IMG/VR virus record: IMGVR_UViG_3300044547_000229
Span: 1 to 43,889 of that record
Reading direction: 5' to 3' (one strand)
DNA: 43,889 bases
From: a virus
Part shown: one piece after another, positions 8,088 through 39,919 of the stretch
Layout: every line of letters starts with the position of its first letter
How positions within the stretch are numbered: position 1 is the stretch's first letter
Notes under the pieces: model-generated
Seen by the model: only the letters and a program-made list of their open reading frames with translations
What the model was told of the DNA's origin: nothing
Database searches by the model: none
Program-made: the position numbers and the translations under genes

Positions 8088-8098
8088 AGTGTCTTTTG

Positions 8099-9805: not shown

Positions 9806-9915
9806 TTGTTAATATTTTTCGCTTTGGTTTACCCGTCGCCTTTTGGCGCTGCAGCCGATGGCCTGACCCCCTCCCCCCATCCTGCCTGGGCCTGCTTGTC
9901 GCTGACCTTGGCGGA

Positions 9916-9928
9916 GGGGTAGGACATT
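9916..9928. repeat. 13-bp direct repeat, copy 1
   Basis: GGGGTAGGACATT occurs here and again 164 bases away at 10080-10092, both in the gap upstream of the large terminase gene. On the minus strand each contains ATGTCCTACCCC. Possible protein-binding site; no function shown. Confidence 0.5.
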
Positions 9929-10079
9929 GGCCTTTTGAACGGTGGCAAAAGTGCGTTTGGCCCAATGTTTACGGGCGTTTGCTGCGTGATTTTGTGTCGA
10001 AGTGAATATAACTGCTATTGTGCATCTGACTGCCATAAACAGGCCTAAATGCGTGGTTTCTGCGTGGTCACTTGTGGTA

Positions 10080-10092
10080 GGGGTAGGACATT
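10080..10092. repeat. 13-bp direct repeat, copy 2
   Basis: Second copy of GGGGTAGGACATT, 13 bases downstream (on the minus strand) of the stop codon of the probable small terminase gene. Confidence 0.5.
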
Positions 10093-10104
10093 TCGGGCCA
10101 TTAC

Positions 10105-10737
10105 CTAAACCAGATCGTGGGTCTGCTCGTCGTTAACTGGGGTCACGTCACGGTCCTTTAGGTCTGCCATCAGGTCACGGTGGCTTACTGATGCTGTCAT
10201 AGATAGGTGTATGCTGGTGGGCTGGCCCTTCAGTGTGGATAATTTGTCCAAAGTGATTCCTATTGCTACGGGTAAAGTGCGATCATCAATGAATTCCATT
10301 GAGGATTCAGCAAGACGCTTAGTGCCTTTCCATATAGCAACCTCCATGAATCCGACAACATCTTTGCGCCACTCTTCTTCAGTCTCTGGGTAGTCGTGCG
10401 GAACCTTAACACCTCTAACATACTTGAACACTGTGCTTTCTATGAAACCAGTCTCTTTCGCTATGGTCTCAAGTGTCTTGTTGAGTATTACTCCTTCTAC
10501 AATCTTGTCTGCCTTATCTTGTGTAAGTGTTGATTTGTGATGTTGTGTTGGGTTGTGTGTCTTCTCGTAACCAAGATCACTAGCCGTCTTCAACACCTTG
10601 TCGATCATCTCTTGCTTGAACTTGCCTTTGCCATTCAAGATCTGATTAACACGCACTACATTTACGCCACAGGTCTTTGATATGGTTTCCTGTGATACAC
10701 GTCCTACTGGTATTCTGCCATCCTTCTTACCCGACAT
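10105..10737 (-). CDS. HTH DNA-binding protein, probable terminase small subunit
   Basis: I take the ATG at 10737 (MSGKKDGRIPVGRVSQETIS), giving 210 residues. The longer in-frame ORF would run deep into the upstream gene. Residues about 13-55 look like a LacI-type HTH (VSQETISKTCGVNVVRVNQI then NGKGKFKQEMIDKVLKTASD). A second HTH-like segment follows (TLETIAKETGFIESTVFKYV). The C-terminal part, with WKGTKRLAESSMEF, LPVAIGITLDKLSTLKGQPT, resembles proteins encoded just ahead of large terminases. DNA recognition for packaging is therefore the best guess, but a transcription regulator is possible. It overlaps the glycosyltransferase gene by 11 bases. Confidence 0.6.
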   Translation of the reverse strand: MSGKKDGRIPVGRVSQETISKTCGVNVVRVNQILNGKGKFKQEMIDKVLKTASDLGYEKTHNPTQHHKSTLTQDKADKIVEGVILNKTLETIAKETGFIESTVFKYVRGVKVPHDYPETEEEWRKDVVGFMEVAIWKGTKRLAESSMEFIDDRTLPVAIGITLDKLSTLKGQPTSIHLSMTASVSHRDLMADLKDRDVTPVNDEQTHDLV

Positions 10738-11542
10738 ACGGTTTAAACCCATAGGGATATTCGCCCCAGTGGTTGAGATGTTTCTTCGGCTGCATGGCAT
10801 AATGCTTCACATCGCACAGGCTCAACCTGACCGCGGCAGCATAGTCCTCGCTGAGGTACTCGTGCTGCCCTGGCAGAGTATCCATGGCGAACGGCATCCA
10901 CAGTGTCGGGAACTGGTCAACCCTCACATCCTTGCACCAGTCGATCCGATAGGGGTTTGGCACCTCTGACCCTCCGAGCGTATCAAGTGCGCTCATAAGG
11001 CAACGTCGAGGGATTGCGAGGCATCCCGATGCGAACATTCGGATCGGTACTAGCTCTGTGGCGCACTCGGCATCCGATGTCTGCATCCTTAGAGCTTTGA
11101 CGTGCTCGGTGTCGATACGCAGGGCCGGCCTTAGCGGAAGTGCTCGGCATGGGTACGGGATGCACACGGTCGCCTGGTGCTCATGGGCGAGCTCTGCCAT
11201 GCGGATAATGTCTTTCGGGTCGAACTCGATATCGTGGTCGATCTGGATCCATACGTCCTTGCCTGAGTCGAGGAACCACTTGGTAGCACGGCAACGGCTT
11301 CGGGATATCAGCGCATCCTCGCGAATGGTTCGTAGATCGGTCTGGCGATCTGATGTACTAAAGTTGGCTGTTAGTCCTACCCAGGACATAAGACAGGCTG
11401 CACTTATACCACCGTATGCATACAGGCTGACGTGTATCGAGGGCCTTGTGCCTGATGTAGTCGGCTCCTGCACCACGGCTGTAGCCTGTGGAGCGTGTAT
11501 GAACGGGTCGTTCATGTTGATTGCTGCTGTTGGATTGTTCAT
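10727..11542 (-). CDS. Glycosyltransferase-like protein (GT-A type)
   Basis: The 271-residue protein has a DxD-type metal and nucleotide-sugar motif (WIQIDHDIEF, DHD at 102-104) after a helical region with RSRCRATKWFLDSGKD, and a later acceptor-site-like region (FASGCLAIPRR, then EYLSEDYAAAVR). This pattern is typical of family 2-like glycosyltransferases in phage genomes. Its start overlaps the upstream HTH gene by ATGA, so it belongs to the replication operon. The target may be modified phage DNA, a host surface sugar or a virion protein; nothing here decides among these. Confidence 0.6.
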   Translation of the reverse strand: MNNPTAAINMNDPFIHAPQATAVVQEPTTSGTRPSIHVSLYAYGGISAACLMSWVGLTANFSTSDRQTDLRTIREDALISRSRCRATKWFLDSGKDVWIQIDHDIEFDPKDIIRMAELAHEHQATVCIPYPCRALPLRPALRIDTEHVKALRMQTSDAECATELVPIRMFASGCLAIPRRCLMSALDTLGGSEVPNPYRIDWCKDVRVDQFPTLWMPFAMDTLPGQHEYLSEDYAAAVRLSLCDVKHYAMQPKKHLNHWGEYPYGFKPYVG

Positions 11543-11883
11543 GGCTGTTTCAAATCGTGTTTGATTCTGTCGGATGCGAGTATTGCTTCGTGACCTTTGG
11601 CTAATATGTAGGTGATTGATCCTCTTGATACACCAATTGCTTTGGCGGTGTCGTCCAGTGTTAGGCCTAGCTGCCTGAGTTCGTAGGCACGCTGACAGAA
11701 CTCTGGTGTATACTGCTCCGGGTCGACGTGTATCTCTTCCTCGATGCCCGGGTCAAGCGATCCGTCGTCGTGGTATTTCTGGCTGAGTGGGTAAGACATG
11801 AGGCCCTTGTCGATGGCCCACTTGATCAGCCTAGGCGCTTCGTTCAGCAGTTTGGTGCGGTTGAGATCGTATTTGATGTTCAT
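11539..11883 (-). CDS. HTH protein, 114 residues
   Basis: I choose the ATG at 11883 (MNIKYDLNRTKLLNEAPRL), which overlaps the helicase stop (ATGA). A longer ORF exists but lies inside the helicase gene. The C-terminal half has a resolvase-type HTH: YTPEFCQRAYELRQLGLTLD followed by DTAKAIGVSRGSITYILAKG. The N-terminal half is acidic. A DNA-binding regulator is likely; the target is unknown. Confidence 0.65.
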   Translation of the reverse strand: MNIKYDLNRTKLLNEAPRLIKWAIDKGLMSYPLSQKYHDDGSLDPGIEEEIHVDPEQYTPEFCQRAYELRQLGLTLDDTAKAIGVSRGSITYILAKGHEAILASDRIKHDLKQP

Positions 11884-13178
11884 TGGAAGCTCGGTGATGG
11901 GTCTGTGAAGCGGCAGTATTGGCCTTCGTAATGGAGTTTTACATGACCGCATTCACCGTCTCGTTGTTTGGCAATAATGATGGCAGCCTCTCCTGACGGC
12001 TCGGTTCTGTCACGGTTTAGAAGCATGACCGCGTCGGCATCACGCTCCAGTTGCCCGCTATCCGCCAGGTCACTCAGCTTGGGCTGACGGCCTTTTTCCT
12101 TGTCGGATTCCCGGTTTAACTGTGCCAAGGCTAGCATGGCCACACCTGTCTGGACGGCGATTGCCTTGAGCTTGCCGGATACCTCGGCGACCTCGTAGGT
12201 GCGTTTCTCCGAGCGGTCTGCTGCCTTCACCTTCTGGATGTAGTCGACGATCACCAGGCGCACCTTGTGTTTGCGTACAGCCCTTCGGACATGGGCGGTG
12301 ATGCTAGCGATACTGTGGCTGCTGGGTCCATCGAGGAACCATAGGGGGCTGCTTGCTATCTTGGCTGAGGCAGCGGTCATGGCCCTCATGTCACCGTCGC
12401 TAAGGTCGCCAGACTTTAGGTTCTGCATCGGGATGCTTCCGATGGTGGAAACCATGCGTCGGAAGATGGCTTCTTGGGACATCTCCAGGCTGACGAATAA
12501 GGTGGGCACCTTATCCTGAATGGCTGCCTGGTAAGCAATAGCGATGGCGATGGCTGTCTTTCCGATACTTGGCCTGGCCGCAATGATGGCCATCTCTCGG
12601 AGCTGCAGGCCGTCGGTCTTGTGGTCGAGCCAATGGAAGCCTGTAGCGATACCAGATAATGAGCCCTTACGATTGAACCTGTCCTGCATTTGGTCGATGA
12701 AGTTACCGGCTACCGTCTTTGAGGTTGCGAGCATCTCCTTGGATGCCTCAATGCTAAGGCCTGCTTCGGCATTGGCGACGATTTGATCCGGTTGGAGTGT
12801 GGTTACCGCGGATTCACGTATCAGACGGTCACCGGTGTCTCGCAACTGGCGACGATGGGCCGAGTCGGTGATGCCCTTGAGGTAATACGGGAGGTTGGCC
12901 GGCGATGGGCAAATTTCCATGGCCTGATTCCAGACATCAAAAGGCATGGGCAGTAGGCCATAGGCTTTCTTCCATTCCTTACCGAGCTCGGACAACGAGG
13001 GCTGTTGGTTGGCCTGCACCATGGTGCGGATGACATCGAAGGTCTGACGCAGGTTGTCCTGGTTAATCCATTCGCTCCGTATTTCTGCTAGGGCATCGGA
13101 GCAGGTGTCGATGGTTCCTGTCAGGCAGGCTCCGATCATGCCCAGCTCGTCGTCTTTGGGGTAATAGACGTCGTTCAT
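11880..13178 (-). CDS. dnaB: Replicative DNA helicase, DnaB family
   Basis: The 432-residue protein has the DnaB two-domain layout: an N-terminal helical domain beginning PKDDELGMIGACLTG, then a RecA-like domain with Walker A ARPSIGKT at 201-208, the conserved LFVSLEMSQEAIFRRM segment, Walker B LVIVDYIQ at 308-315, and ALAQLNRESD followed by LSDLADSGQLERDADAVMLL. It would unwind the phage origin and fork as a ring hexamer. It overlaps the DUF1376 gene (ATGA), the usual arrangement of helicase and loader or initiator. No primase domain is fused. Confidence 0.92.
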   Translation of the reverse strand: MNDVYYPKDDELGMIGACLTGTIDTCSDALAEIRSEWINQDNLRQTFDVIRTMVQANQQPSLSELGKEWKKAYGLLPMPFDVWNQAMEICPSPANLPYYLKGITDSAHRRQLRDTGDRLIRESAVTTLQPDQIVANAEAGLSIEASKEMLATSKTVAGNFIDQMQDRFNRKGSLSGIATGFHWLDHKTDGLQLREMAIIAARPSIGKTAIAIAIAYQAAIQDKVPTLFVSLEMSQEAIFRRMVSTIGSIPMQNLKSGDLSDGDMRAMTAASAKIASSPLWFLDGPSSHSIASITAHVRRAVRKHKVRLVIVDYIQKVKAADRSEKRTYEVAEVSGKLKAIAVQTGVAMLALAQLNRESDKEKGRQPKLSDLADSGQLERDADAVMLLNRDRTEPSGEAAIIIAKQRDGECGHVKLHYEGQYCRFTDPSPSFQ

Positions 13179-13981
13179 AGGCTATCCCTCCAATCGAGTT
13201 CCTTCTTGGGGCTGCCTGGTGTCGAGCTGATGGTGATTCCCTGCGACTTGTATAATCCCTTCCAGCCCGAGGCTATTGAGTTCTCAACAACCGAAGGCAG
13301 TTCTGCTGGTGTGAACTCTCGGGACCACTTGGTCAGTGCTGCAGTCAGGCCAGTCTTCTTGTAGGTCTCACGCTTTTCTGCCTTGTACTGCATCCAGAGC
13401 CGGATGGCATCCAGGCAGTTCTTGGTTCGGATAAGTTCGGGCAGTTCTACACCATGGGCAATCTCCCATTCTGACTTGGGAGCCTTGGTATCTTTCTTTA
13501 TAGGAGATGGAGATGGAGAGCTATCTTCCGGCCATGCTCCGGCCATAGGTCCGGCTATGGTCTGGCTATGCTCTGGCCATGGCGCGGCCATTGGGGTCGC
13601 TATAGCAACCCCATTAGGGTCGCCATCATCTGGGCATTTTCCCCACCTTTTTGCCGCTCCACTAGTACCTGCAGCAGCTTGACGGGTCTTAAAGGATTGT
13701 TGCTCCTCTCGGACTTTCTCCAATCTTTCGTTCTTTAGTGTATGGCCATCGCATAGCCGGAACTTAGCCATGACATAGCCAACGGATGGCGACCCTATCA
13801 TTCCGGCTATCCGAGCAACACGCTCTTCGTCGTTCGGGATTCCTCCCTTCGTCCATTGGTGGCAGAGCAGTCTGATGTAGCCACCAACCTCCTCGGCGCT
13901 CATCTCTGAAGTGCCTGCCAGGAAGTCATCTGCATAGAACTGAAAGGCTGGAGCCTTTCTGGTTTTGTTTTCTTCACTCAT
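13175..13981 (-). CDS. DUF1376 (YdaU-like) replication protein, likely helicase loader or initiator
   Basis: The 268-residue protein carries a DUF1376-type domain at about residues 10-115: APAFQFYADDFLAGTSEMSA, GGYIRLLCHQWTKGGIP, then FRLCDGHTLKNERLEKVREE. A low-complexity linker (about 118-165) rich in Met, Ala, Pro, Trp and Glu follows, then a helical C-terminal domain with WMQYKAEKRETYKKTGLTAA. DUF1376 proteins are regularly encoded next to phage helicases and are thought to act in replication initiation. The linker is encoded by 11-bp DNA repeats (13528-13594), which resembles lambda O, whose gene contains the origin iterons. Confidence 0.72.
   Translation of the reverse strand: MSEENKTRKAPAFQFYADDFLAGTSEMSAEEVGGYIRLLCHQWTKGGIPNDEERVARIAGMIGSPSVGYVMAKFRLCDGHTLKNERLEKVREEQQSFKTRQAAAGTSGAAKRWGKCPDDGDPNGVAIATPMAAPWPEHSQTIAGPMAGAWPEDSSPSPSPIKKDTKAPKSEWEIAHGVELPELIRTKNCLDAIRLWMQYKAEKRETYKKTGLTAALTKWSREFTPAELPSVVENSIASGWKGLYKSQGITISSTPGSPKKELDWRDSL
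13528..13594. repeat. Six tandem 11-12 bp iteron-like repeats inside the DUF1376 gene
   Basis: Units on the plus strand are CCGGCCATGCT, CCGGCCATAGGT, CCGGCTATGGT, CTGGCTATGCT, CTGGCCATGGC and GCGGCCATTGG, with a degenerate seventh. Consensus about CYGGCYATGST. The period is 11-12 bases, close to one helical turn and not a multiple of three, so the protein sequence only repeats every third unit. That suggests the DNA pattern itself may be selected. Candidate replication-origin iterons. Confidence 0.6.
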
Positions 13982-14133
13982 AATTCAAACAGAGACCCCG
14001 TCACGCACCGTGGTAGGAACTCGCGGAGAAACGGCGCGACGTTGCACGGTACGGACGGGGAAAAGTTGGTTGAACATGGTTTCTCTTGTGGTGCCTGCGC
14101 TCGCTTCCTACGGCTCACGCTGACGGGCTCTCC
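13982..14133 (-). other. 152-bp gap between methyltransferase and DUF1376 genes
   Basis: No gene that I can support. A 30-codon ORF (13985-14077, MFNQLFPVRTVQRRAVSPRV) ends just ahead of the next start but has no clear ribosome-binding site. It could be a leader peptide or chance. Confidence 0.35.
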
Positions 14134-14815
14134 CTATAGGACAGCCTGTATTGTGTCCAGCTCTTGCATCAGGCTTCTGAAGGCTCGTTCTGCTGTTGCT
14201 GGGACAACACCGTTACCAAGGAGTCGGAGCTCATCCGTTCTATTGTCACAGGTGATGCACAGCTCGGCATAGTCCATCCCACTGGAAGGCCCATCAGGGT
14301 CTCCACCCAGCGGGGGTTGAGTTTGCCGGATGACTCCATTGCTACCTTGGTCGTCAGGAATAGTTGCTTGTTGATCCCCTGTGCCTTCTTTGTATCCGCT
14401 ATCTGCTGCCACTTCACCGGATCCGCATTCGCTCCCGGCCTGCTGTCCCCATCCGCTGATGGTGTCGGCCATGACTGCTTCACCTGCTGGTCCAGCTTGT
14501 CGATCATGCTGCCGTCCTTCTGCCGGTGCGCTCCGGTCGACACGGTGGCTGTCTGCCACGACTCTGGGCGGCTCCCATGCGTATTGCTGCTCGCCGGGAC
14601 GGCTGGGCCATGCACTGCAACCACTCCTGATAACTTGCACTTGGCTGCCACCTTCTTCATGTCCACGTTTTCCCCAGTGTCCTTGTGGTCCCTGGCTGCT
14701 GGCGTTGGCCATGACTTCACAACCACCGTCGTCAGACTCTCCTGACTGCCCTTAATGCCTCGGGAACGGTCCTGAAAGCCCTGGCGTACCTCTGAAGCCA
14801 CTGGCGACGGCCAGG
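14134..14815 (-). pseudogene. Frameshifted C-terminal part of C5 methyltransferase
   Basis: After motif VIII the gene continues in the neighbouring frame: CSSWPSPVASEVRQGFQD, SWPTPAARDHK, SWPTPSADGDS and LNPRWVETLMGLPVGWT are typical of the target-recognition half of phage C5 methyltransferases. Near 14270-14280 the family resemblance moves back to the first frame, which gives ELRLLGNGVVPATAERAF, the conserved motif X. Two compensating shifts, one near 14800-14815 and one near 14275, are therefore needed for a full enzyme. Either the gene is decayed, or sequencing indels, or recoding, are involved. Confidence 0.65.
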
Positions 14816-15315
14816 ATGAACACCCGCTTGCGCTGGTGCGGCGCTCCGCATTCAGACGCTGAGAATATGCCCCACGTCGTTCGATAACCCATTCCTGCCA
14901 GGTCTTCGATGACGTCGGACAGCCCCAGGCTGATATGTCCTTCGACGTTTTCAAAGAAGCAGCACTTGGGTTTGAGAAGTCGAATGCCATCTGCAATAAA
15001 CGGCCAAAGATGCCGCGGGTCTTGCTTGCCTTTACGCTGCCCTGCTGCACTGAAGGGCTGGCATGGGTAGCCCCCAGTGAGGATGTCCACTCGGTCGCGA
15101 AACGCTGCCCAAGGGAAGGTCTTAAGATCCGGCCAGATAGGTGCCGGGTCCATGAGTCCCGCTTCCATTTTGCTGACCAGATTCGCAATTGCGAAGGCTT
15201 CGATCTCACAAAGAGCGATTGTGCGCAGACTTGGGATTGCTCGTTTGAGTCCAAGCTCAATGCCTCCGTATCCAGCGCACAGGCCAATGTGTGTAACTGC
15301 CGGGGTAGAATCCAT
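14752..15315 (-). CDS. C5 cytosine DNA methyltransferase, catalytic N-terminal part
   Basis: The 187-residue ORF holds motif I (HIGLCAGYGGIELGL, 9-23), motif IV with the catalytic Cys85 (GGYPCQPFS, 81-89), motif VI (FFENVEGH, 120-127) and motif VIII (QRKRVFILA, 161-169). It then runs into a frame that stops at 14754-14752. An intact enzyme needs the target-recognition region and motif X, which lie downstream in other frames. The intact family methylates C5 of cytosine in a short site, usually to protect phage DNA from restriction. As read, this product should be inactive alone. Confidence 0.8.
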   Translation of the reverse strand: MDSTPAVTHIGLCAGYGGIELGLKRAIPSLRTIALCEIEAFAIANLVSKMEAGLMDPAPIWPDLKTFPWAAFRDRVDILTGGYPCQPFSAAGQRKGKQDPRHLWPFIADGIRLLKPKCCFFENVEGHISLGLSDVIEDLAGMGYRTTWGIFSASECGAPHQRKRVFILAVASGFRGTPGLSGPFPRH

Positions 15316-15329
15316 GTCATGGTTGCTCC

Positions 15330-15992
15330 TCAGTAAGCCGGCATCAGCACATCAGCCACTTTTTGGGTCAACTCGACATCACGCAGGCAGTAGTTGATCG
15401 CCGCCTCGCGGTCAGTCTTGAACAGCTCGGAGAACATGGCCCCATTGCCTGCCTTCTCGCCGAGCCCCAGATGCCTTGAGATCGCTCCGAGGCTCCCATG
15501 TGCCCTACTGTCGCCCAACTGCCAAACCTCGCGCAGGTCGACCACCAGGTCGCTCCAGTACCTGCCCTGCCGTATCCAGTAGGGTGGGGTGATGCGGTGT
15601 TTCCATGACCGTTTAATCAGGAACGGCAAGTCGAACGGTTTAACATTGAAACCGATCATCGTAGGCTGGCGCTCCATGCTGGTGATGAGCTTCCACCATT
15701 GCTTGAGCATCTCGGCCTCACCATCTGCATCACAGCACAGCACCGATGGTGTCTCGTGCTCGATACGGTAGCCGATGCACAGGATCTGGCCCGACAATGC
15801 ATCCAGGGCAGCGCCGCGGATGTAGTCGGACACGTGCGTCTCTTCTGCACGCTGGATCTTTTCGGCGATCAAGTCCGGGTTCTTGGTGTTGCCGAGCTTT
15901 ACGTCGGAGGCAACGAACGGTGGGATGACCAATTCGCTCAAGGGCATCGGCCCTGTTTCGATGTCGAAGTAGATTTTATGGTTGGCTGGCAT
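15330..15992 (-). CDS. DEDD-type 3'-5' exonuclease, PolB proofreading-like
   Basis: The 220-residue protein has the three exonuclease motifs of DnaQ-like DEDDy enzymes: Exo I YFDIETG (Asp10, Glu12), Exo II IGFNVKPFDLPFL near residue 115, and Exo III YCLRDVELT near residue 205. No polymerase domain is attached. The length fits predicted PolB-like stand-alone exonucleases of phages. A part in DNA repair, recombination or end processing is likely. It is 14 bases from the methyltransferase and overlaps the upstream HTH gene by 17 bases. Confidence 0.8.
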   Translation of the reverse strand: MPANHKIYFDIETGPMPLSELVIPPFVASDVKLGNTKNPDLIAEKIQRAEETHVSDYIRGAALDALSGQILCIGYRIEHETPSVLCCDADGEAEMLKQWWKLITSMERQPTMIGFNVKPFDLPFLIKRSWKHRITPPYWIRQGRYWSDLVVDLREVWQLGDSRAHGSLGAISRHLGLGEKAGNGAMFSELFKTDREAAINYCLRDVELTQKVADVLMPAY

Positions 15993-16284
15993 TTGGTTTA
16001 CGGGGGTTGATTGCGTAATAAGCTGTGTTTAGACCGACATTGAAATGATCGGCTATCTCCCGGTAGGTGTAGCTGAGGTGGGTTTTACGCCATTCAGCGA
16101 TCTCCTGGGCGATGTCCTTTTTGATGGAATACTTGCGATCCGTGTTTTTCTTTTCCTTGGGCCCCTTGTTGACCATGGCCTTGGAGTCCAAGTTTTCCTG
16201 CTTTGGCTTTGCCTGAGGCTTCACGTACCCGGAAGGGGGAGCACAGAGCTCTGCGATACGTGCGGCGGTTAGATTGATATGCAT
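15976..16284 (-). CDS. Small basic HTH protein, 102 residues
   Basis: I take the ATG at 16284 (MHINLTAARIAELCAPPSG); the open frame upstream overlaps a gap and the next gene. A Lys-rich linker (KPKQENLDSKAMVNKG, KEKKNTDRKYSIKKD) leads to a C-terminal HTH: AEWRKTHLSYTYREIADHFN then VGLNTAYYAINPRK. Likely a DNA-binding regulator. The 83-base gap upstream could hold its promoter, but I see no clear one. Confidence 0.6.
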   Translation of the reverse strand: MHINLTAARIAELCAPPSGYVKPQAKPKQENLDSKAMVNKGPKEKKNTDRKYSIKKDIAQEIAEWRKTHLSYTYREIADHFNVGLNTAYYAINPRKPNASQP

Positions 16285-16367
16285 GAAAGTTAATGTGCGT
16301 TTGTCGACCGATGCGCACCCCCGGCATTTACCATGAGTCCCCGATAACAACAGGTTACCGGAAAGTG

Positions 16368-16766
16368 TTAGATGATCTTGCCGCAGTGGGGGCAGGTCTT
16401 GCCCAGTGTTGGCCTGGTCTCCAGAGGGACAACCTCCAGCCATTCGCAAATTTCGATGTAGCTCTTACGTCCGAAAGACCATACGCATCCTGGGAACAGG
16501 TGGCCGCTCTGATACAAATCCAAAGCGTGCTCCTTGCTCTTGATGCCTAGGTTCTCCAGCACCCGGGCGGCCCGTACGCTCAATGGGAAGCCCCAGAGGC
16601 TCAGGATTCCCTCCATCTGCTTGGCAGACTTGACGATCTGATGGATGCGTTGCCGGGTTAGGTTCAGTTCCTTCCCAATCTCGTCCATGGTGCGCCCTTC
16701 GGCTCGCATTTGAACCACGCCTGGCACCAGGTGGGCGACCTTGGCGTATTGCTTGCGTGTTTTCAT
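16368..16766 (-). CDS. Regulator with sigma region 4-like HTH and alpha-CTD-like domain
   Basis: The 132-residue protein has three parts. Residues 23-50 (EGRTMDEIGKELNLTRQRI then HQIVKSAK) read like sigma-70 region 4.2 (consensus T-x-E-E-[IV]-G-x-x-x-x-[VL]-T-R-E-R-[IV]-R-Q-I). Residues 61-111 (PLSVRAARVLENLGI, FGRKSYIEICEWL) follow the RNA polymerase alpha C-terminal domain: Arg65 aligns with E. coli alpha Arg265 and GRKS with GKKS. The end has TCPHCGK (125-128), a possible metal knuckle. Its start shares one base with the stop of the SSB-like gene. I infer control of transcription, perhaps by contacting RNA polymerase or promoters. Similarity was judged by eye. Confidence 0.6.
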   Translation of the reverse strand: MKTRKQYAKVAHLVPGVVQMRAEGRTMDEIGKELNLTRQRIHQIVKSAKQMEGILSLWGFPLSVRAARVLENLGIKSKEHALDLYQSGHLFPGCVWSFGRKSYIEICEWLEVVPLETRPTLGKTCPHCGKII

Positions 16767-17500
16767 CAGAAGGGCACGTCATCGAAGTCCGGTTGATCCT
16801 TGGCATCAATCTCCCGCAGGCGCTGGATGACCGCGGCGATGAGTTGTTTGTCCTCCGGTGTCTTGCCGGCGCTGATTTGAGCCTTAGGCAGCCAGTGCTC
16901 GCCCAGGCCTTTGACCGCAGAGTCGGCCAGCTCGGAGAGCGGTGTGCCCTTGAACTTGCCCACGTGAACCTTGGTGCTGCCCAGGTCAACTGGTCGAGGT
17001 GTCGTACCATCCGGGACCACGGTCTTCACCTGGTCGTCCTTGGCTGGGCGGTCCTGCATCCGTACCCACAGGCCCGAGGGCTGCAACGGTTCGCCATGTT
17101 TGTGCGGCATCATCAACTTGATGTTGGCGTAGGTCTTGGTGCCGTCCTGTGACTGCTCATGGGCGATGATGAGCGTCACTGGCTTACCGATGAGCGACTC
17201 AAGGTCGAGGCCGTTGTTCTCGGCATCGGTCAATTTCCTGCCAAACCAGTCCTTGAGCACCTTGGTCAGGGCTGCCTTCTCATGTAGGCTCGGGACCAGG
17301 GGCTTGCTGAATACCACCCAGGGCTGCACCGGGTCGCGTGATCCGTCAATGAGGTCTAGCTCAAAGGCGAACTTGAACTTCTTCTTAACACCGTACTCGG
17401 TCTCGTACTCCTTCAACGGAGTCACATCTACGCACACTGCTCGTCCCGAGAACTCGGGACATGGCGCGAACTCTTTACCGCCTGCTGCTTTAATGATCAT
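16766..17500 (-). CDS. Single-stranded DNA-binding protein-like
   Basis: The 244-residue protein begins MIIKAAGGKEFAPCPEFSGR and continues with strands typical of an OB-fold (VCVDVTPLKEYETEYG, KFKFAFELDLID, KPVTLIIAHEQSQDGTKTYA). It ends DFDDVPF, nearly the acidic tail of bacterial SSB (DFDDDIPF), which recruits replication partners. A Pro-rich linker and a helical segment (HVGKFKGTPLSELADSA) precede the tail, so it is longer than E. coli SSB. It probably coats single-stranded DNA during helicase-driven replication. An unusual AT-repeat leader precedes the start. Confidence 0.7.
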   Translation of the reverse strand: MIIKAAGGKEFAPCPEFSGRAVCVDVTPLKEYETEYGVKKKFKFAFELDLIDGSRDPVQPWVVFSKPLVPSLHEKAALTKVLKDWFGRKLTDAENNGLDLESLIGKPVTLIIAHEQSQDGTKTYANIKLMMPHKHGEPLQPSGLWVRMQDRPAKDDQVKTVVPDGTTPRPVDLGSTKVHVGKFKGTPLSELADSAVKGLGEHWLPKAQISAGKTPEDKQLIAAVIQRLREIDAKDQPDFDDVPF

Positions 17501-17515
17501 GTCTTACGTTTTGTT

Positions 17516-17544
17516 GTTATTTATTGGTTATTTATTTGTTATTT
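17516..17544 (-). promoter_or_regulatory. AT-rich 11-bp tandem repeat leader of the SSB-like gene
   Basis: On the plus strand GTTATTTATT occurs at 17516-17525 and 17527-17536, with GTTATTT at 17538-17544. As mRNA the leader is made of AAUAAAUAAC units and contains no G until about ten bases before the AUG, so it should be unstructured. Such a site just upstream of a single-stranded nucleic acid-binding protein resembles the unstructured operator through which T4 gp32 represses its own translation. Its 5' end overlaps the stop of the upstream gene. Confidence 0.5.
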
Positions 17545-17733
17545 GGAGGCCTGTTTCTCGACCTCCGAAAGCTGTATTGCCATCCTGTAATAGTTGGCCC
17601 AGTAGTCCGGGAAGGCATCCCGGATCTGCTTAAGGTTGGAAGGATCAGCGGCGAGTGCTGCTGCTCCCAACTTAGAGATGAACGAACCACCGTATTCGAT
17701 CATGCACCTGGCTACATCTCGGTCTGTTATCAC
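17539..17733 (-). CDS. Small phage protein, 64 residues
   Basis: The start is GTG (17733-17731), overlapping the TGA of the 50-residue gene as GTGA. The protein reads MITDRDVARCMIEYGGSFIS, then a helical part with DAFPDYWANYYRMAIQLSEV. It appears to be a soluble helical protein of the early region. I recognise no family. Confidence 0.6.
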   Translation of the reverse strand: MITDRDVARCMIEYGGSFISKLGAAALAADPSNLKQIRDAFPDYWANYYRMAIQLSEVEKQASK

Positions 17734-17882
17734 TTGGTTGCCTTTCCGCGTTTACGGTTCCAGAAGGTGGTGAACTCTGTCTTGATCTTACGAGCTGCAC
17801 GGTAGGCTTCACCGGCCTGTTCCTTGGTTAGCTGATAGGGTCCGCTGCCTTGATTGATGAACTTACAGACGTCTTTGCTCAT
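17730..17882 (-). CDS. 50-residue basic protein
   Basis: ATG at 17882-17880 and TGA at 17732-17730. It begins MSKDVCKFINQGSGPYQLTK and ends FWNRKRGKATK, with a central helix (EQAGEAYRAARKIKTEF). The GTGA overlap with the next gene and its place in a coupled gene string support it as real. It could bind nucleic acid because of its basic end. Function unknown. Confidence 0.55.
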   Translation of the reverse strand: MSKDVCKFINQGSGPYQLTKEQAGEAYRAARKIKTEFTTFWNRKRGKATK

Positions 17883-17893
17883 AGATCCTAATG

Positions 17894-18406
17894 CTATTCC
17901 GATTTCATTGGTGTGGATTGCACGCCATTGTAGGCCACTGTCTTCGGCCTATAGATGCCCACTTGTTCGGTCTCTTCGACCCAGGATGGTCCGCCCCTGA
18001 TGTGGAATATGCAGGAGGACATTCCGTTCCATGACTTGGTGGATGACTTGGCCGAGGTGTACGCAGATCCAAACGTAGCGTTCAAATCGTCGCTCGACAT
18101 AGCCTTGACGTTGGCCCAGTCGATGTCGCCTGCATGCCATAATTTGAATCCTAGCTCCAACGGAGCTACTACCTCTGCAATGCCGGGGAAGTGCCAGACC
18201 CACTCGTCATGGCTGCTGGCATCACCGGACATAACCGCGTAGCACTGGTAGTTTCCAAGCGGTACGGAGCCACTGCCCCAGTCGCAGCTCTCGCCGGGTT
18301 TAAGAACAGCCGAGCGTGTCGGATGGTCGTTGCATTTAGGCTGCTCGAAAAGAGCAACAAGAACGGGGACTTCGGTTTGGTTTTCGATTTTGATGTGGGT
18401 ACTCAT
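17894..18406 (-). CDS. Unrecognised 170-residue protein, probable beta-sandwich
   Basis: I use the ATG at 18406 (MSTHIKIENQTEVPVLVALF); the upstream open frame is basic and Arg/Thr-rich and overlaps the next gene out of frame, so it is unlikely. The protein has alternating hydrophobic strands, a VLKPGESCDWGSGSVPLG segment typical of beta-sandwich turns, several Trp residues and a Cys-containing end region (NGMSSCIFHIRGG). It has no signal peptide. I cannot name the family; it is an accessory gene between replication genes. Confidence 0.55.
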   Translation of the reverse strand: MSTHIKIENQTEVPVLVALFEQPKCNDHPTRSAVLKPGESCDWGSGSVPLGNYQCYAVMSGDASSHDEWVWHFPGIAEVVAPLELGFKLWHAGDIDWANVKAMSSDDLNATFGSAYTSAKSSTKSWNGMSSCIFHIRGGPSWVEETEQVGIYRPKTVAYNGVQSTPMKSE

Positions 18407-18434
18407 AGCTATTCGGAGGTGTAAATGGTGTCGG

Positions 18435-18632
18435 TTATGGGGTTGGTTGCAGGATGAAATCGAAGTTGATCTTCCAGTTGTCGCCAAGGCGGTTGTAGGT
18501 GTCGTTACGGATCTTCCAATTGCGCGGATCGCGGGTCGTCTTGGTGTGACGGCAGCGGATTCTGACGTCGATGTCCTTGAGCGCCACATTTCGCAGCCGG
18601 TCGTCTTCAGGTAGTTCGTGAAGGTGTTTCAT
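18435..18632 (-). CDS. Small basic protein, 65 residues
   Basis: It begins MKHLHELPEDDRLRNVALKD and is rich in Arg, Asn and Asp (RIRCRHTKTTRDPRNWKIRN), ending in a short hydrophobic strand (NFDFILQPTP). Its ATG overlaps the stop of the upstream gene. Unknown function. Confidence 0.5.
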   Translation of the reverse strand: MKHLHELPEDDRLRNVALKDIDVRIRCRHTKTTRDPRNWKIRNDTYNRLGDNWKINFDFILQPTP

Positions 18633-18826
18633 GTAAGAAGGTGTTTGATGATTAGGTTCCGGTCTTTGATTGTCGCTCGGAGGATTTGTTCCAGCACAAC
18701 GTGAGGATTTACTGTGCTAACGTGTTTCCATTCTGGGCTTTGATCGACGTGCTTGGCTGTGTCCAGACTTTCTACGCGAACGATGCCGTTAAATGCGTGG
18801 AGGTAAATAAATGCGCAGTCTCTCAT
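18629..18826 (-). CDS. Small protein, 65 residues, unknown
   Basis: It begins MRDCAFIYLHAFNGIVRVES and contains mixed strand and helix segments with many His residues. It overlaps both neighbours by ATGA, so it is part of the translationally coupled run from 20649 to 18435. No recognisable domain. Confidence 0.5.
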   Translation of the reverse strand: MRDCAFIYLHAFNGIVRVESLDTAKHVDQSPEWKHVSTVNPHVVLEQILRATIKDRNLIIKHLLT

Positions 18827-19137
18827 TTAACCTCCTTCTCGCTCCACAATAATAGATCAGCGCGGAGTGCGTCGTTCTCTTTCTCCAGCCGCTCGATGCG
18901 CTGTCGTAGCTTGTGGTTCTCGTTTGTTTCAATTGATTCGTTGGTCATCGCGAAATCGAGTTCACGTTCGAGTTTCTTCAATCGGTCCGCGTGGTTTCGG
19001 GAACAAATGCTCAAAAATTCCCAGCGCGGGCTTGGATCTAGCGACTGACTTTTAAACCAGTTTGATACCGCCATCGCTGCCGATACAATTGATGGTGGAA
19101 CCTTATCAATGAGACTGGGGTCGTGTTGATGGCTCAC
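18823..19137 (-). CDS. Coiled-coil protein, 104 residues
   Basis: The N-terminal half (PPSIVSAAMAVSNWF) is helical. The C-terminal half is a coiled coil of about 50 residues ending LEKENDALRADLLLW and EKEVK. The last 20 residues nearly match the end of the 67-residue protein at 19325-19528 (LERENDALRADLLLW, QKEIK), so the two share a tail cassette. Coupled to both neighbours by ATGA overlaps. Confidence 0.6.
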   Translation of the reverse strand: MSHQHDPSLIDKVPPSIVSAAMAVSNWFKSQSLDPSPRWEFLSICSRNHADRLKKLERELDFAMTNESIETNENHKLRQRIERLEKENDALRADLLLWSEKEVK

Positions 19138-19328
19138 GGCTTATCCTCCTTGGCTTTGTGCCATCGGTTAATGTTTGCCATGTCGTCATTGTCATACATG
19201 AGTTCATCCCCCGCCTCCTCCAGCCTGCGAATTTGCTCCATGTAGTGCTTCCGCTCACCTTCGAGCTTGTCCCACAAAGCGCGGAGACGGTTTTCGAGTT
19301 CGGTGACGTGTTGTGTCGGTTCGCTCAT
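19134..19328 (-). CDS. Small coiled-coil protein, 64 residues
   Basis: I take Met at 19328 (MSEPTQHVTELENRLRALWD), which overlaps the TGA of the preceding gene. A single coiled coil covers most of it. The end (IRRLEEAGDELMYDNDD, then INRWHKAKEDKP) is related to the end of the 94-residue protein at 19719-20003 (IKRLEEAGDALANNHNP, IDWLKAREDQL). Unknown function. Confidence 0.58.
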   Translation of the reverse strand: MSEPTQHVTELENRLRALWDKLEGERKHYMEQIRRLEEAGDELMYDNDDMANINRWHKAKEDKP

Positions 19329-19528
19329 TTGATTTCCTTTTGTTCCCACAGCAGCAGATCGGCGCGGAGAGCGTCGTTCTCACGCTCTAATTGGGTGATG
19401 CGCATATGCTGCTCCGCTAGTCGCTCCCCTGCTTCAGCGATTGCTGAGTTGGCCACGCCATCGTCGGATTGGATTTCTGTTGCCAATATGTGCATGGCTG
19501 CGATCAGTGTTTCAGTTGAGGTTCTCAC
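19325..19528 (-). CDS. Small coiled-coil protein, 67 residues
   Basis: It begins MRTSTETLIAAMHILATEIQ and is helical throughout, with a C-terminal coiled coil QLERENDALRADLLLWEQKE shared with 18823-19137. ATGA overlaps join it to both neighbours. Function unknown; the shared tail suggests that the proteins may pair with each other or with one common partner. Confidence 0.58.
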   Translation of the reverse strand: MRTSTETLIAAMHILATEIQSDDGVANSAIAEAGERLAEQHMRITQLERENDALRADLLLWEQKEIK

Positions 19529-19722
19529 GGCTTTGCCTCCTTAATAATTAAAAGAATTCCCATATAAATTATCCAAACGGCTCCGATCGGTATCAGCCAA
19601 AACAGCCGAAAGACCATTCCAAAGTCATACTGCCCACTAGAACGGTATGGCCTGACCATGACGCACAACATAATTACTGTAATAAATATTGGTATGATCC
19701 ACGATTTGATTGTGATAGTCAC
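19525..19722 (-). CDS. Small two-helix membrane protein, 65 residues
   Basis: Two hydrophobic segments (WIIPIFITVIMLCVMV at 8-23 and FRLFWLIPIGAVWIIYMGIL at 38-57) flank a polar loop, with a short Lys-containing tail. It lies within the coiled-coil gene array and overlaps both neighbours. It could be a membrane anchor for the array products or another lysis component; neither can be shown. Confidence 0.6.
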   Translation of the reverse strand: MTITIKSWIIPIFITVIMLCVMVRPYRSSGQYDFGMVFRLFWLIPIGAVWIIYMGILLIIKEAKP

Positions 19723-20003
19723 AGCTGGTCCTCCCTCGCTTTGAGCCAGTCAATAAACGTAAACGGGTTGTGATTGTTGGCGAGTGCATCACCAGCCTCC
19801 TCCAGCCGTTTGATGCGCTCTTGTTGATCGCGGATCTTTATAGATTGAGCGTCGTCCATCCATGTTTCTCGCATGATCTGTAACACCTTCGCTGCTGTCT
19901 CCGTAGGTTTCAGATGCTCGGCTACAGTGATGCGTCCATCGGAGTGGATTGTGAGTAACTGTGCGTTGCACTTTTTGCTATCAAGGATGATTGTATCGTT
20001 CAT
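19719..20003 (-). CDS. Small protein with C-terminal coiled coil, 94 residues
   Basis: I take Met at 20003 (MNDTIILDSKKCNAQLLTIH), which overlaps the stop of the preceding gene. A beta-like N-terminus (LTIHSDGRITVAEHLKP) is followed by a coiled coil (DAQSIKIRDQQERIKRLEEA) and an end related to that of 19134-19328. It belongs to the same array of coupled small genes. Confidence 0.58.
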   Translation of the reverse strand: MNDTIILDSKKCNAQLLTIHSDGRITVAEHLKPTETAAKVLQIMRETWMDDAQSIKIRDQQERIKRLEEAGDALANNHNPFTFIDWLKAREDQL

Positions 20004-20197
20004 TTCGCCTCCTTCACTTGTTGCATTTGAACAAAGTCCAATCGGTTCTCCTCGTTGATTGCGATACCCCAGCCGTTGCGACGGCAGGACAGTTCGATTG
20101 CGCTGAAGACTTCGTTCATAACTTTGTCGGGCAGATAGATAGAAAGAAGCCCTTTGAATGTGAGTCGATACTGCTCTTTGTCTTCTTTTTTGCTCAT
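20000..20197 (-). CDS. Small charged protein, 65 residues
   Basis: It begins MSKKEDKEQYRLTFKGLLSI and contains a hydrophobic segment followed by SAIELSCRRNGWGIAINEEN. No membrane helix is convincing. Its start overlaps the resolvase stop and its stop overlaps the next start. Unknown function. Confidence 0.55.
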   Translation of the reverse strand: MSKKEDKEQYRLTFKGLLSIYLPDKVMNEVFSAIELSCRRNGWGIAINEENRLDFVQMQQVKEAK

Positions 20198-20649
20198 TTG
20201 ACTCCCTCCGCAATCAAGGCGTGCTCAAGTATCAACAAAGCATCCGCCGTCTTGAGTGTGATCGATAGGCGAGGATGGCGCTGCTGGGCGATCTGTTTGA
20301 GGTGGCCCTTCCAGCCAGTGCCGTAGGTGGCTTTAACGCCGCATTGGAGCGTTTTTTGCCAGCGTTGGGGTGGTACTTCGATCAGCCTCGTTTTAGTGCT
20401 GGCGATGAGCCCCAACAGGAAGCCCACGTTGCGACCGAAGTTGAACATCGCGCTCCCAGGTGCGCCTTTGCCGCCGGCGTACCCACCCACCTTTTCAAGG
20501 TACACCACATCCGAGATCCCCAGGCGGTCGATAACCAGCGTGCATATGTCCTGATCGGTGGTAGGCATGGAATCCAGGATGATGCCCCCGTGCCCGTGGT
20601 AGGCGATACCGCCGCTCATGCCTGGGTCTATTGCGAGGATGCGCTTCAC
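20194..20649 (-). CDS. RuvC-like Holliday junction resolvase
   Basis: The 151-residue protein shows the RNase H-fold pattern of RuvC and phage relatives: ILAIDPGMSGGIA with Asp8, VVYLEKVGGYAGG with Glu52, and a C-terminal TADALLILEHALI with an acidic Asp136. A middle segment (NFGRNVGFLLGLIAS, IEVPPQRWQKTL) matches phage-type RuvC proteins. It would resolve branched DNA before packaging or during recombination. The gene lies among early genes, coupled to both neighbours. Confidence 0.82.
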   Translation of the reverse strand: MKRILAIDPGMSGGIAYHGHGGIILDSMPTTDQDICTLVIDRLGISDVVYLEKVGGYAGGKGAPGSAMFNFGRNVGFLLGLIASTKTRLIEVPPQRWQKTLQCGVKATYGTGWKGHLKQIAQQRHPRLSITLKTADALLILEHALIAEGVK

Positions 20650-20780
20650 TTGGCGGCCTTCTTTAGCCAGGCCTGAATAGCCTTGTCGGCTACCGCCTGC
20701 ATTTTTAGGCCGGCGGCCAGGCAGTAGGCCCGGAGAGTTTTGTGTGTGTCGGTGGTCACGTTGATGGTCTTTGGTTTCAT
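20646..20780 (-). CDS. Ribbon-helix-helix-like small protein, 44 residues
   Basis: I take the ATG at 20780, which overlaps the TAA of the endolysin gene by one base (TAATG). The product, starting MKPKTINVTTDTHKTLRAYC, has a beta strand followed by two helices (KTLRAYCLAAGLKMQAVADK, IQAWLKK), as in RHH DNA-binding proteins. A longer ORF would lie inside the endolysin gene. Possibly a small repressor. Confidence 0.5.
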   Translation of the reverse strand: MKPKTINVTTDTHKTLRAYCLAAGLKMQAVADKAIQAWLKKAAK

Positions 20781-21112
20781 TACAGATGCTTGCGGACTTT
20801 GTTCCAATAGGCCTCGGTGGCCTGCTTCTTCTCGCCCCTGGGACCGCCTCCGTTCCACTTACGGGCTAACTGCTCGGTAGTGCAGCCATTGCCGTAGTGG
20901 CGGAGGTAGGCCTCGCACACCGCCCTAGCCTGTGCCCGGTTGGTCATCTGCTGCCACTGGTAGTTCGACCCAGTGAATCGGTTCACATCCTGCACCACAC
21001 CGCGGTGGATCTGTAATGGCCCAAGGGCGCGTCCGTTGTCGCCAATGGCAAGATCGTTGCCCGAGGACTCTACGATGATCAGGGCCGAGATTAGGTTGGA
21101 GAGAGTGGTCAT
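20780..21112 (-). CDS. Endolysin, lytic transglycosylase-like
   Basis: The 110-residue protein carries a compact lysozyme or SLT-like core: LISALIIVESSGNDLAIGDN with the probable catalytic Glu15 in ESSGN, then GRALGPLQIHRGVV, and later QARAVCEAYLRHYGNG, LARKWNGGG and a terminal helix. It should cut the glycan strands of peptidoglycan. There is no clear signal peptide, so a holin would be needed for release. It is placed with early genes, far from the holin-like genes in the two cassettes. Confidence 0.78.
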   Translation of the reverse strand: MTTLSNLISALIIVESSGNDLAIGDNGRALGPLQIHRGVVQDVNRFTGSNYQWQQMTNRAQARAVCEAYLRHYGNGCTTEQLARKWNGGGPRGEKKQATEAYWNKVRKHL

Positions 21113-21160
21113 GGTTTGGAGAGTTGTGCGCGTTGACCAGTCGCGCCCCTGGGGGTGGTA

Positions 21161-21180
21161 TTAGCCCCACCCGGGGCTAA
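21161..21180 (-). promoter_or_regulatory. Perfect 8-bp hairpin ahead of the endolysin gene
   Basis: TTAGCCCC and GGGGCTAA form a perfect stem with a four-base loop, one base after the stop of the 87-residue gene. No T-run follows on either strand, so it is not a standard terminator. A role in mRNA processing, attenuation or endolysin dosage is possible. Confidence 0.45.
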
Positions 21181-21181
21181 A

Positions 21182-21445
21182 TCAAAGGGCAGCGTCCCAG
21201 ATGGCCTTGCAGCTTTCCTCAAGCTCCCGGGAACCGGTGTCGCCGATGCAGCCGGCGAAATACTGCTCAAGGTAACCAACGGTCCAGCACGGCGGGTTTT
21301 CACGTAGACCGTCCTGCTGGGCGCACTGGGCAATGTTCAGGACTCCCCATCCGGCGATGACTTCCTTTTGTGAGGCCAAGTAAGGAGCCAGCAGCTCAAA
21401 CTTCTGCTCGTCCTTCTGAAATGTGAAATTTGCTGCTTTGCTCAT
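21182..21445 (-). CDS. 87-residue protein at the start of the early gene run
   Basis: I take the ATG at 21445 (MSKAANFTFQKDEQKFELLA) because GGAAACAAC lies just upstream, a good ribosome-binding site. A longer ORF starting at 21466 is less likely. The protein has several Cys residues (AQCAQQDG, PPCWTVG, GCIGDTG, ESCKAIWD). No family recognised. It is the first gene after the only sizeable gap between the late tail block and the early block, so it may be expressed early and strongly. Confidence 0.6.
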   Translation of the reverse strand: MSKAANFTFQKDEQKFELLAPYLASQKEVIAGWGVLNIAQCAQQDGLRENPPCWTVGYLEQYFAGCIGDTGSRELEESCKAIWDAAL

Positions 21446-21582
21446 GTTGTTTCCTTTTTCCTTCAAACTTGATTGCCCCGACGGAAGTCAAGCTGCCACA
21501 AAGATAGACACGAGTCTACAGCATTCTACTCTTTTCTGTAGATTTGATAGAAAACCCAATGTTTACGCGGGTCAAACAGGGG
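21446..21582 (-). promoter_or_regulatory. Candidate early promoter and operator region
   Basis: This 137-bp gap separates the late tail genes from the early genes. It contains a 7-bp inverted repeat TCTACAG (21515-21521) and CTGTAGA (21536-21542) with a 14-base spacer, a small AGAC-ACGA-GTCT hairpin (21506-21517), and on the minus strand a TAGAAT that resembles a -10 box. A matching -35 is not clear. Probable start of the early operon, with the inverted repeat as a possible repressor site. Confidence 0.4.
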
Positions 21583-21756
21583 TTACTCGGAAACGAACTT
21601 GGCCTCAAACTCGGCCTTCGGGCGCACGTAGACCTTACCGGTGTCGAGCCGGCGGTAGACCACCACCGGCCACTTGATCTCACCCATCCGTAGCTCCGCA
21701 GTATCGGCCAAAATTTCGACCACTATCGACCGGTTGGTGCGGTTGTGGTGATTCAT
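21583..21756 (-). CDS. 57-residue basic protein
   Basis: ATG at 21756-21754 overlaps the TGA of the upstream gene; TAA is at 21585-21583. The product begins MNHHNRTNRSIVVEILADTA and continues with KWPVVVYRRLDTGKVYVRP, a small beta-rich pattern. It is the last gene of the late tail block. Unknown function. Confidence 0.5.
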   Translation of the reverse strand: MNHHNRTNRSIVVEILADTAELRMGEIKWPVVVYRRLDTGKVYVRPKAEFEAKFVSE

Positions 21757-22013
21757 GGCCAGACAGAATAAACCACGGTGCCCTGGCCATTGGAATCGGT
21801 CAGCTCGACTGCATTCACGCCCTTGAGTTTGGCCAGTGAAGACAGGAGCAGAGTGTCGTTGTTAGCCTGGGCAATGCAGGTCGAAACGATGTCGGCATCG
21901 TCGTACGAGGCAGCCAGGAGCTCGGTGGTACGGTCGCGCCAGACTCGGATGACACGGCCATTGGACAAGGGGACGCGCCGCATCGATTCGACGCAGGGGA
22001 AGGTGTGTTTCAT
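21753..22013 (-). CDS. 86-residue protein after the long tail fibre
   Basis: It begins MKHTFPCVESMRRVPLSNGR and has strands VIRVWRDR and a terminal GTVVYSVWP. It is 12 bases from the fibre gene and overlaps the next gene by ATGA. Small genes just after fibre genes often encode fibre-associated or assembly proteins, but I see no diagnostic motif. Confidence 0.55.
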   Translation of the reverse strand: MKHTFPCVESMRRVPLSNGRVIRVWRDRTTELLAASYDDADIVSTCIAQANNDTLLLSSLAKLKGVNAVELTDSNGQGTVVYSVWP

Positions 22014-22025
22014 GGAAACCTAAGG

Positions 22026-39364: not shown

Positions 39365-39513
39365 TACTCGGATTTAGGCTGTGCGGCTGCGACTATGAGG
39401 TCAACAAGCGGAAGGGCTGCACGGGCGTTAGCAACGCCACCAGCCTTAACCGCGATGTCGATGAGTTGGAGGAGGCTATTGGCCTGCTCCTGGGTGAGTT
39501 CGATCTTGATCAT
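39364..39513 (-). CDS. 49-residue conserved small protein (cassette B)
   Basis: ATG at 39513-39511 overlaps the stop of the 132-residue gene. The product (MIKIELTQEQANSLLQLIDI, then VKAGGVANARAALPLVDLI) is homologous to the 52-residue protein at 783-941. DNA identity is clearly lower than protein similarity, a sign of purifying selection. Function unknown. Confidence 0.7.
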   Translation of the reverse strand: MIKIELTQEQANSLLQLIDIAVKAGGVANARAALPLVDLIVAAAQPKSE

Positions 39514-39908
39514 GCGGAGGGAGCGTCAGCGATAACCACAGGCTCCGCAACCTTAACCGGAGGCGGCACCGGAACCCACGGCAGCGGAGGAGCGATGATC
39601 GGAGGATTGATCTGGTCGTTGATCTGCTGCGTGACGTTCGCTTCGATGGCGGTCTTATCGACTCCATTGGCGTAGCACCAGTTCAAGACCTGTTCCTGCG
39701 TCAGGTCAGGATATGGCGTAAAGCTACCAGACGGCGGCTGGAACGAGCATGAGCCGTAGCAGGTGCCGCTGTAGGTCTTTGCGTCGTCGCCGGTGCCGAT
39801 GGTTTCAATGCCGTTGCAGCGCCAATCGGCGGTGATTACAACATCGGTGAGGGAGCCTTCGGTCGGCTTAACGAGAAGGCGTTCGATGATCCAGAGGATG
39901 GTAGGCAT
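39510..39908 (-). CDS. 132-residue fibre-associated phage protein (cassette B)
   Basis: It begins MPTILWIIERLLVKPTEGSL and keeps the Cys-rich core and the YPDLTQEQVLNWCYANGVDK segment of 938-1348, with a short insertion (ETIGTGDDAKT) in the first half and a shortened Pro-rich tail. DNA similarity to copy A is high but less than that of the fibre core. It follows the fibre gene by 11 bases. Function unknown. Confidence 0.7.
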   Translation of the reverse strand: MPTILWIIERLLVKPTEGSLTDVVITADWRCNGIETIGTGDDAKTYSGTCYGSCSFQPPSGSFTPYPDLTQEQVLNWCYANGVDKTAIEANVTQQINDQINPPIIAPPLPWVPVPPPVKVAEPVVIADAPSA

Positions 39909-39919
39909 AGTCTTTTAGA

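Follow-up and report, generated by a model that had tools for sequence, protein, structure and literature searches.

Sigma region 4 and the alpha-CTD are the upstream-DNA readers of RNA polymerase, and K593 and R596 of sigma70 are used to touch the rest of the enzyme. Residues D259 and E261 of alpha contact sigma70 region 4 (PMC5511352), the sigma70 changes E585Q and R588H relax -35 recognition, at -33 (PMC2613000), and in the sigma appropriation of phage T4 the function of region 4 is replaced by AsiA (PMC6755090). We found two other proteins that hold Sigma70_r4 and RNA_pol_A_CTD together, both domains over the Pfam cut-off and both proteins from Bacteroidota-type mobile elements: a 332-aa ORF on gut phage scaffold MT835636.1, whose ORFs include integrase-like and terminase-like ones as judged by eye, and WP_124785686.1, from a Chryseobacterium plasmid. 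A search of the open-access literature, a scope outside which most subscription journals lie, brought up no description of such a fusion. An earlier note on the DNA studied here knew of no described phage factor with this exact combination; in public sequence, as these two proteins show, the combination is not unique.

The window analysed here is a stretch of 43,889 nucleotides (positions 1 to 43,889 of IMG/VR virus record IMGVR_UViG_3300044547_000229), and it carries a gene for a 132-aa protein in which a sigma region 4-like helix-turn-helix (HTH) precedes an alpha-CTD-like domain and a short C-x-H-C tail (Table 1). The ORF runs from an ATG at 16766 to a stop codon at 16370-16368 and contains every string that the earlier note quoted from it; the strand, which that note did not state, is minus. 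The gene is real, a chance ORF being excluded by its relatives and by its dN/dS ratio: ten close relatives in IMG/VR share 77%–100% identity, a wider family there reaches down to ~55%, at least 244 confirmed IMG/VR loci match, and the ten close members give a dN/dS of 0.117 for the entire protein and of 0.09–0.13 when the HTH, the second domain and the tail are taken separately. A scan of 84,980 bacterial and archaeal genomes, seeded on short conserved peptides and so of a kind that distant relatives would escape, returned no significant relative. Nor was a significant homologue found among named phages and plasmids, and C75C1, the nearest named phage by terminase, has no match to the family HMM. 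The gene is well conserved, in a phage group seen solely through metagenomes. Matches to S-RIM2 and Enterococcus were rejected as chance or HTH-only. A Piscinibacter plasmid protein (L085) has an HTH plus a helix-hairpin-helix (HhH) over the same span and matches the family HMM at E=0.004; it is possibly analogous.

Table 1. Features of the locus and of other contigs (window positions unless a contig is named)
Feature	Position	Strand	Basis or remark
Gene for 132-aa protein (sigma4-like HTH, alpha-CTD-like domain, C-x-H-C tail)	16368..16766	minus	
Sigma region 4.2-like HTH, residues 22-48	16623..16703	minus	Pfam Sigma70_r4, AlphaFold
Predicted alpha-CTD-like domain, residues 59-112	16431..16592	minus	hhalign, Foldseek PDB, HMM ranking, residue table
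C125-x-H127-C128 knuckle, C-terminal hairpin	16383..16394	minus	conserved in 79/79 alignable members
Upstream SSB-like gene, product ending DFDDVPF	16766..17500	minus	directly upstream in 118/118 testable loci (those with enough upstream DNA)
Downstream 3'-5' exonuclease gene	15330..15992	minus	Pfam DNA_pol_B_exo2, PHROG 403; 139/139 testable loci (those with enough downstream DNA)
P1 RNA hairpin just 3' of the stop codon	16340..16361	minus	6/8 stem pairs with compensatory changes
H-type pseudoknot RNA core (GGGGGTGCGCATCGG..ACAAACGCAC)	16295..16325	minus	covariation
Sister phages without gene and P1, keeping ssb, pseudoknot and exonuclease	L223 about 4.2-5.7 kb; L188 1-1100	minus (L223)	
Pseudoknot core lacking P1, located in another phage 3' of a RusA-type-resolvase-like gene (by eye)	L173 9740-9790		

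The first domain is recognized by Pfam as Sigma70_r4 (E=3.3e-6, 27.0 bits against a gathering score of 24.1), and the same model is matched in 32 of 32 diverse family members (E<=1). HTH_28, HTH_23 and MarR stay below their cut-offs in the 132-aa protein, and in both the protein and the family members Sigma70_r4 outscores HTH_23, HTH_28 and HTH_7, so that the region 4.2-like HTH proposed earlier is supported and a transposase-type HTH is not the better description. Nearly all matches of the HTH to PDB sequences are to sigma region 4, the best being region 4 of SigA/RpoS/RpoD. An AlphaFold model of the whole protein (pLDDT 84) places helices at residues 11-22, 27-34 and 38-58, and the recognition helix, T-R-Q-R-I-H-Q-I, aligns with sigma70 T583-I590. 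Across 80 distinct members, the R584 position is R or K, E585 is replaced by Q in all 80, Q589 is kept in all 80, and the R588 position varies among H, N and K (H in the 132-aa protein); the -35 reading set R584/E585/R588 is therefore not retained as a whole. Because E585Q-like and R588H-like changes relax -35 specificity in sigma70, it is unlikely that these proteins read a normal -35 element. Pfam gives no match to Sigma70_r2, the core-binding region 2, and without that region the protein is not a sigma factor.

The assignment of the second domain has to be made at the level of the family. RNA_pol_A_CTD scores just 13.7 bits on the single sequence, under its gathering score of 23.8, which is no proof of an alpha-CTD, and none of the 32 diverse members does better than E=0.033. 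Compared as profiles by hhalign, by contrast, the domain and the alpha-CTD align with a probability of 95.8% and a score of 46.1 (36.5 against cellular alpha-CTDs alone), where 200 column shuffles reach at most 17.5 and a reversed profile 10.2. Full-length Foldseek yielded generic HTH matches only, and the second domain was therefore modelled alone (residues 52-118, pLDDT 84). Its top three Foldseek PDB matches, 7vpd_S, 1coo and 8igr_G, are chains with RNA polymerase alpha-CTD, and the HhH folds of Hel308, PolX and ligase rank below them; the E-values of the alpha-CTD matches are weak (1.0–2.6), so the ranking counts as evidence and the score does not. An hmmsearch against PDB sequences has the Helicobacter pylori alpha-CTD 2max as its best match (E=0.12), with a sole other match at 1.7, and when an alpha-CTD HMM is run over 17,345 ORFs, 110 of the 146 family ORFs outrank the best unrelated ORF. 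Residues R65, G99, S102 and E105 sit at alpha R265, G296, S299 and E302, and these four equivalents are invariant (80/80 distinct members). The N268 position is N in 47 of the 80 and R in the other 33, among them the 132-aa protein; the K298 position holds K in 37 members, the other 43 having V or I; and the domain has a 3-residue insertion relative to the alpha-CTD. The agreement of four family-level tests supports an alpha-CTD-like fold for the second domain, as the earlier note had predicted, and the fold ranking does not prefer an unrelated HhH. Of the DNA contacts which that note had pointed to, Arg65 is universal (80/80), but the GRKS motif does not extend beyond its own clade, its second residue being mostly W and its third K in only 37 of 80. 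Two more residues, C107 and H89, are invariant in the family along with the C-terminal knuckle, and the knuckle may be a metal site.

The gene sits in a fixed order of ssb, 132-aa protein gene and exonuclease gene, followed in most relatives by genes for a primosomal protein and DnaB, and the TGA of the SSB-like gene overlaps its ATG by one base. Contigs L223 and L188 have ssb, exonuclease and dnaB (identities of ~67% for SSB, 70% for the exonuclease and 86% for DnaB); the gene is missing from between their ssb and exonuclease genes and turns up nowhere else on these records, which may be fragments. Two further small HTH-like ORFs lie in the replication module on the minus strand, at 15976-16284 (19/141 relatives) and 11539-11880 (127/141).

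Between the gene and the exonuclease lies a structured RNA element (16295-16361, minus). The 83 nt past the stop codon are conserved even in the most diverged relatives and fold as an 8-bp P1 followed by an H-type pseudoknot (columns 52-55 with 67-70, and 59-63 with 79-83). Across 46 distinct sequences the share of paired cells is 98.0%, as against 90.7 +/- 0.5% in shuffles and 30%–42% in slid versions; nine pairs show changes in both partners, and none of 500 shuffles reaches the covariation score of 0.302 (shuffled, 0.162). Pairing in the pseudoknot helix amounts to 93% over 105 distinct elements, C-G to G-C swaps included, where shuffles give at most 80%. The folding energy of the single sequence is unremarkable (z -0.5); the case for the element rests on covariation. 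Deviations of P1 from Watson-Crick pairing are mainly G-U, which favours RNA; a DNA operator palindrome is disfavoured, its variants not being random mismatches, and an intrinsic terminator is rejected, there being no U run after P1. None of the 4,227 Rfam families matches at gathering, the matches seen being at chance level. A pattern scan finds the pseudoknot core in at least 120 IMG/VR stretches, and in at least 110 of 117 examined occurrences the gene is directly upstream. Of the other seven, four have too little upstream DNA to judge, and three (L188, L223 and L173) keep the core with gene and P1 both absent; L188 and L223 have the same sequence here, making about two independent gene-less cases.

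What the protein does can be approached through the surfaces it has kept. In the hhalign register D259 and E261 correspond to G59 and P61, both invariant in the alignment (P61 in 80/80), and when the sigma alignment is continued K593 and R596 correspond to S47 and Q50. The alignments thus indicate that residues of the DNA face are kept and that these residues of the polymerase face have been lost. The earlier note had proposed that the protein could mimic or displace sigma region 4 and the alpha-CTD and so redirect transcription; as a mimic it would stand in for the two at promoters and dock on the RNA polymerase of the host, whose transcription would be redirected or blocked. Both domains do resemble the polymerase's upstream-DNA readers, and phage T4 offers a precedent in AsiA, which assumes the role of region 4 (PMC6755090). 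A true polymerase mimic is nevertheless improbable because the parts that would touch polymerase are missing; the Q at the E585 position in 80 of 80 members also counts against it, E585Q and R588H being changes that relax -35 reading (PMC2613000), as does the AlphaFold model, in which a single helix connects the domains and there is no flexible linker. With its interface residues absent and its -35 readers changed, the proposed function is not supported. We favour instead, with moderate confidence, a phage protein that binds double-stranded DNA, and most likely one that regulates transcription of the phage's own early/replication module. The gene is constrained, both domains are assigned and its place next to ssb is fixed. 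DNA binding, target site and regulatory direction are what we infer beyond this: the HTH would read a major groove, and the alpha-CTD-like domain, joined to it by one continuous helix, would clamp the minor groove or backbone next to it through the Arg/Gly/Ser/Glu set that the alpha-CTD uses on UP DNA. The two folds may be borrowed from, or may only resemble, the upstream-DNA readers of RNA polymerase, with the docking surfaces apparently gone.

The absence of the gene from one sister lineage that keeps both neighbours is what might be seen for an accessory regulator. It speaks against the main rival, in which the protein is an accessory of replication or recombination, an HTH plus HhH-type duplex binder that partners SSB and the exonuclease, in origin or junction binding for example, since that lineage retains ssb, exo and dnaB. 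The invariant seat between ssb, with its DDxPF tail, and the 3'-5' exonuclease, ahead of the primosomal protein and DnaB, suits replication or repair just as well as regulation, and repair proteins often contain HhH-type folds (Hel308, PolX and ligase ranked under the alpha-CTDs), yet fold and residues fit the alpha-CTD better than a repair HhH; we regard this rival as possible but not likely. The regulator reading has its own counterpoints, in that K298 is lost from about half of the family and no operator-like DNA was identified; the conserved downstream element is poor evidence of a DNA operator because its pairing is GU-tolerant and of RNA type. That P1, an RNA-type structure rich in G-U pairs, and the gene are missing together in L188 and L223, and that the gene-less L173 phage has the pseudoknot without P1, would also fit a protein acting on the hairpin of its own transcript to tune its own or exonuclease expression. 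We consider this very improbable, as the gene-less cases number only about two independent ones, a single deletion could explain the joint loss, and DNA is the usual ligand of HTH and alpha-CTD domains. A bolder extension of the regulator reading, and a rather unlikely one, is that gene and hairpin form a movable control cassette, whose protein would recognize a composite site specific to the phage, with a major groove for the HTH and a UP-like minor groove, and would reprogramme transcription of the replication module, while the new pseudoknot RNA family would act at the same junction.

The family suggests that the two DNA-reading modules found side by side at bacterial promoters can be joined in one protein, lose the faces by which they dock on polymerase and persist as a core gene of an uncultivated phage group, and the 132-aa protein offers a small, expressible test case for the roles of sigma4 and alpha-CTD without polymerase. 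The covarying hairpin-plus-pseudoknot RNA, directly downstream of the gene in at least 110 loci and outside Rfam, is an independent finding and may be the more novel of the two. Elsewhere in the window, positions 8000-24000 hold two sigma70-type promoter matches compared with 8.0 (sd 3.3) in shuffles, a weak signal that would fit non-standard promoters. A 1994-aa polyvalent-type protein (24965-30949, minus) has a weak ART-PolyVal (ADP-ribosyltransferase) match near its C-terminus, below cut-off, and near-identical tail-fibre-like gene pairs near both window ends (1-2659 and 39510-40828) reflect duplication or an assembly effect.

Set against known systems, the family shares with sigma-70 region 4 (PF04545) an HTH with an R-x-R-I-x-Q-I recognition helix, but lacks region 2 and equivalents of K593/R596, has Q for E585 and is variable at R588. 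With the RNA polymerase alpha-CTD (PF03118) it shares the fold ranking and the R265, G296, S299 and E302 contacts; in contrast to alpha, the protein has no alpha-NTD and carries W-G-F-P in place of the D259/E261 segment, and the family has lost K298 in about half of its members and scores under the Pfam cut-off. T4 AsiA/MotA, which stand in for sigma4 function (PMC6755090), are also factors encoded by a phage, but they are other proteins, defined by a docking on sigma4 of which no counterpart is seen here. Several phage proteins have an alpha-CTD over the Pfam cut-off, namely Ruegeria phage V16 gp23, Microbacterium phage Mazun gp26, Bacillus phage Goe8 gp5 and Mycobacterium phage Marley1013 gp51, all without an attached sigma4-like HTH; in V16 gp23 (L149 1423-2289), a 288-aa protein annotated as an HTH protein or pyrophosphatase, the alpha-CTD is N-terminal. 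The MT835636.1 ORF and WP_124785686.1 have the same two Pfam domains in a single protein, and the family HMM finds them weakly (E=0.04–0.11), domain by domain and with no significant similarity over the whole length. Both differ from the 132-aa protein in their size of ~300 aa and in a long spacer between the domains, and the gut-phage protein has an extra N-terminal HTH.
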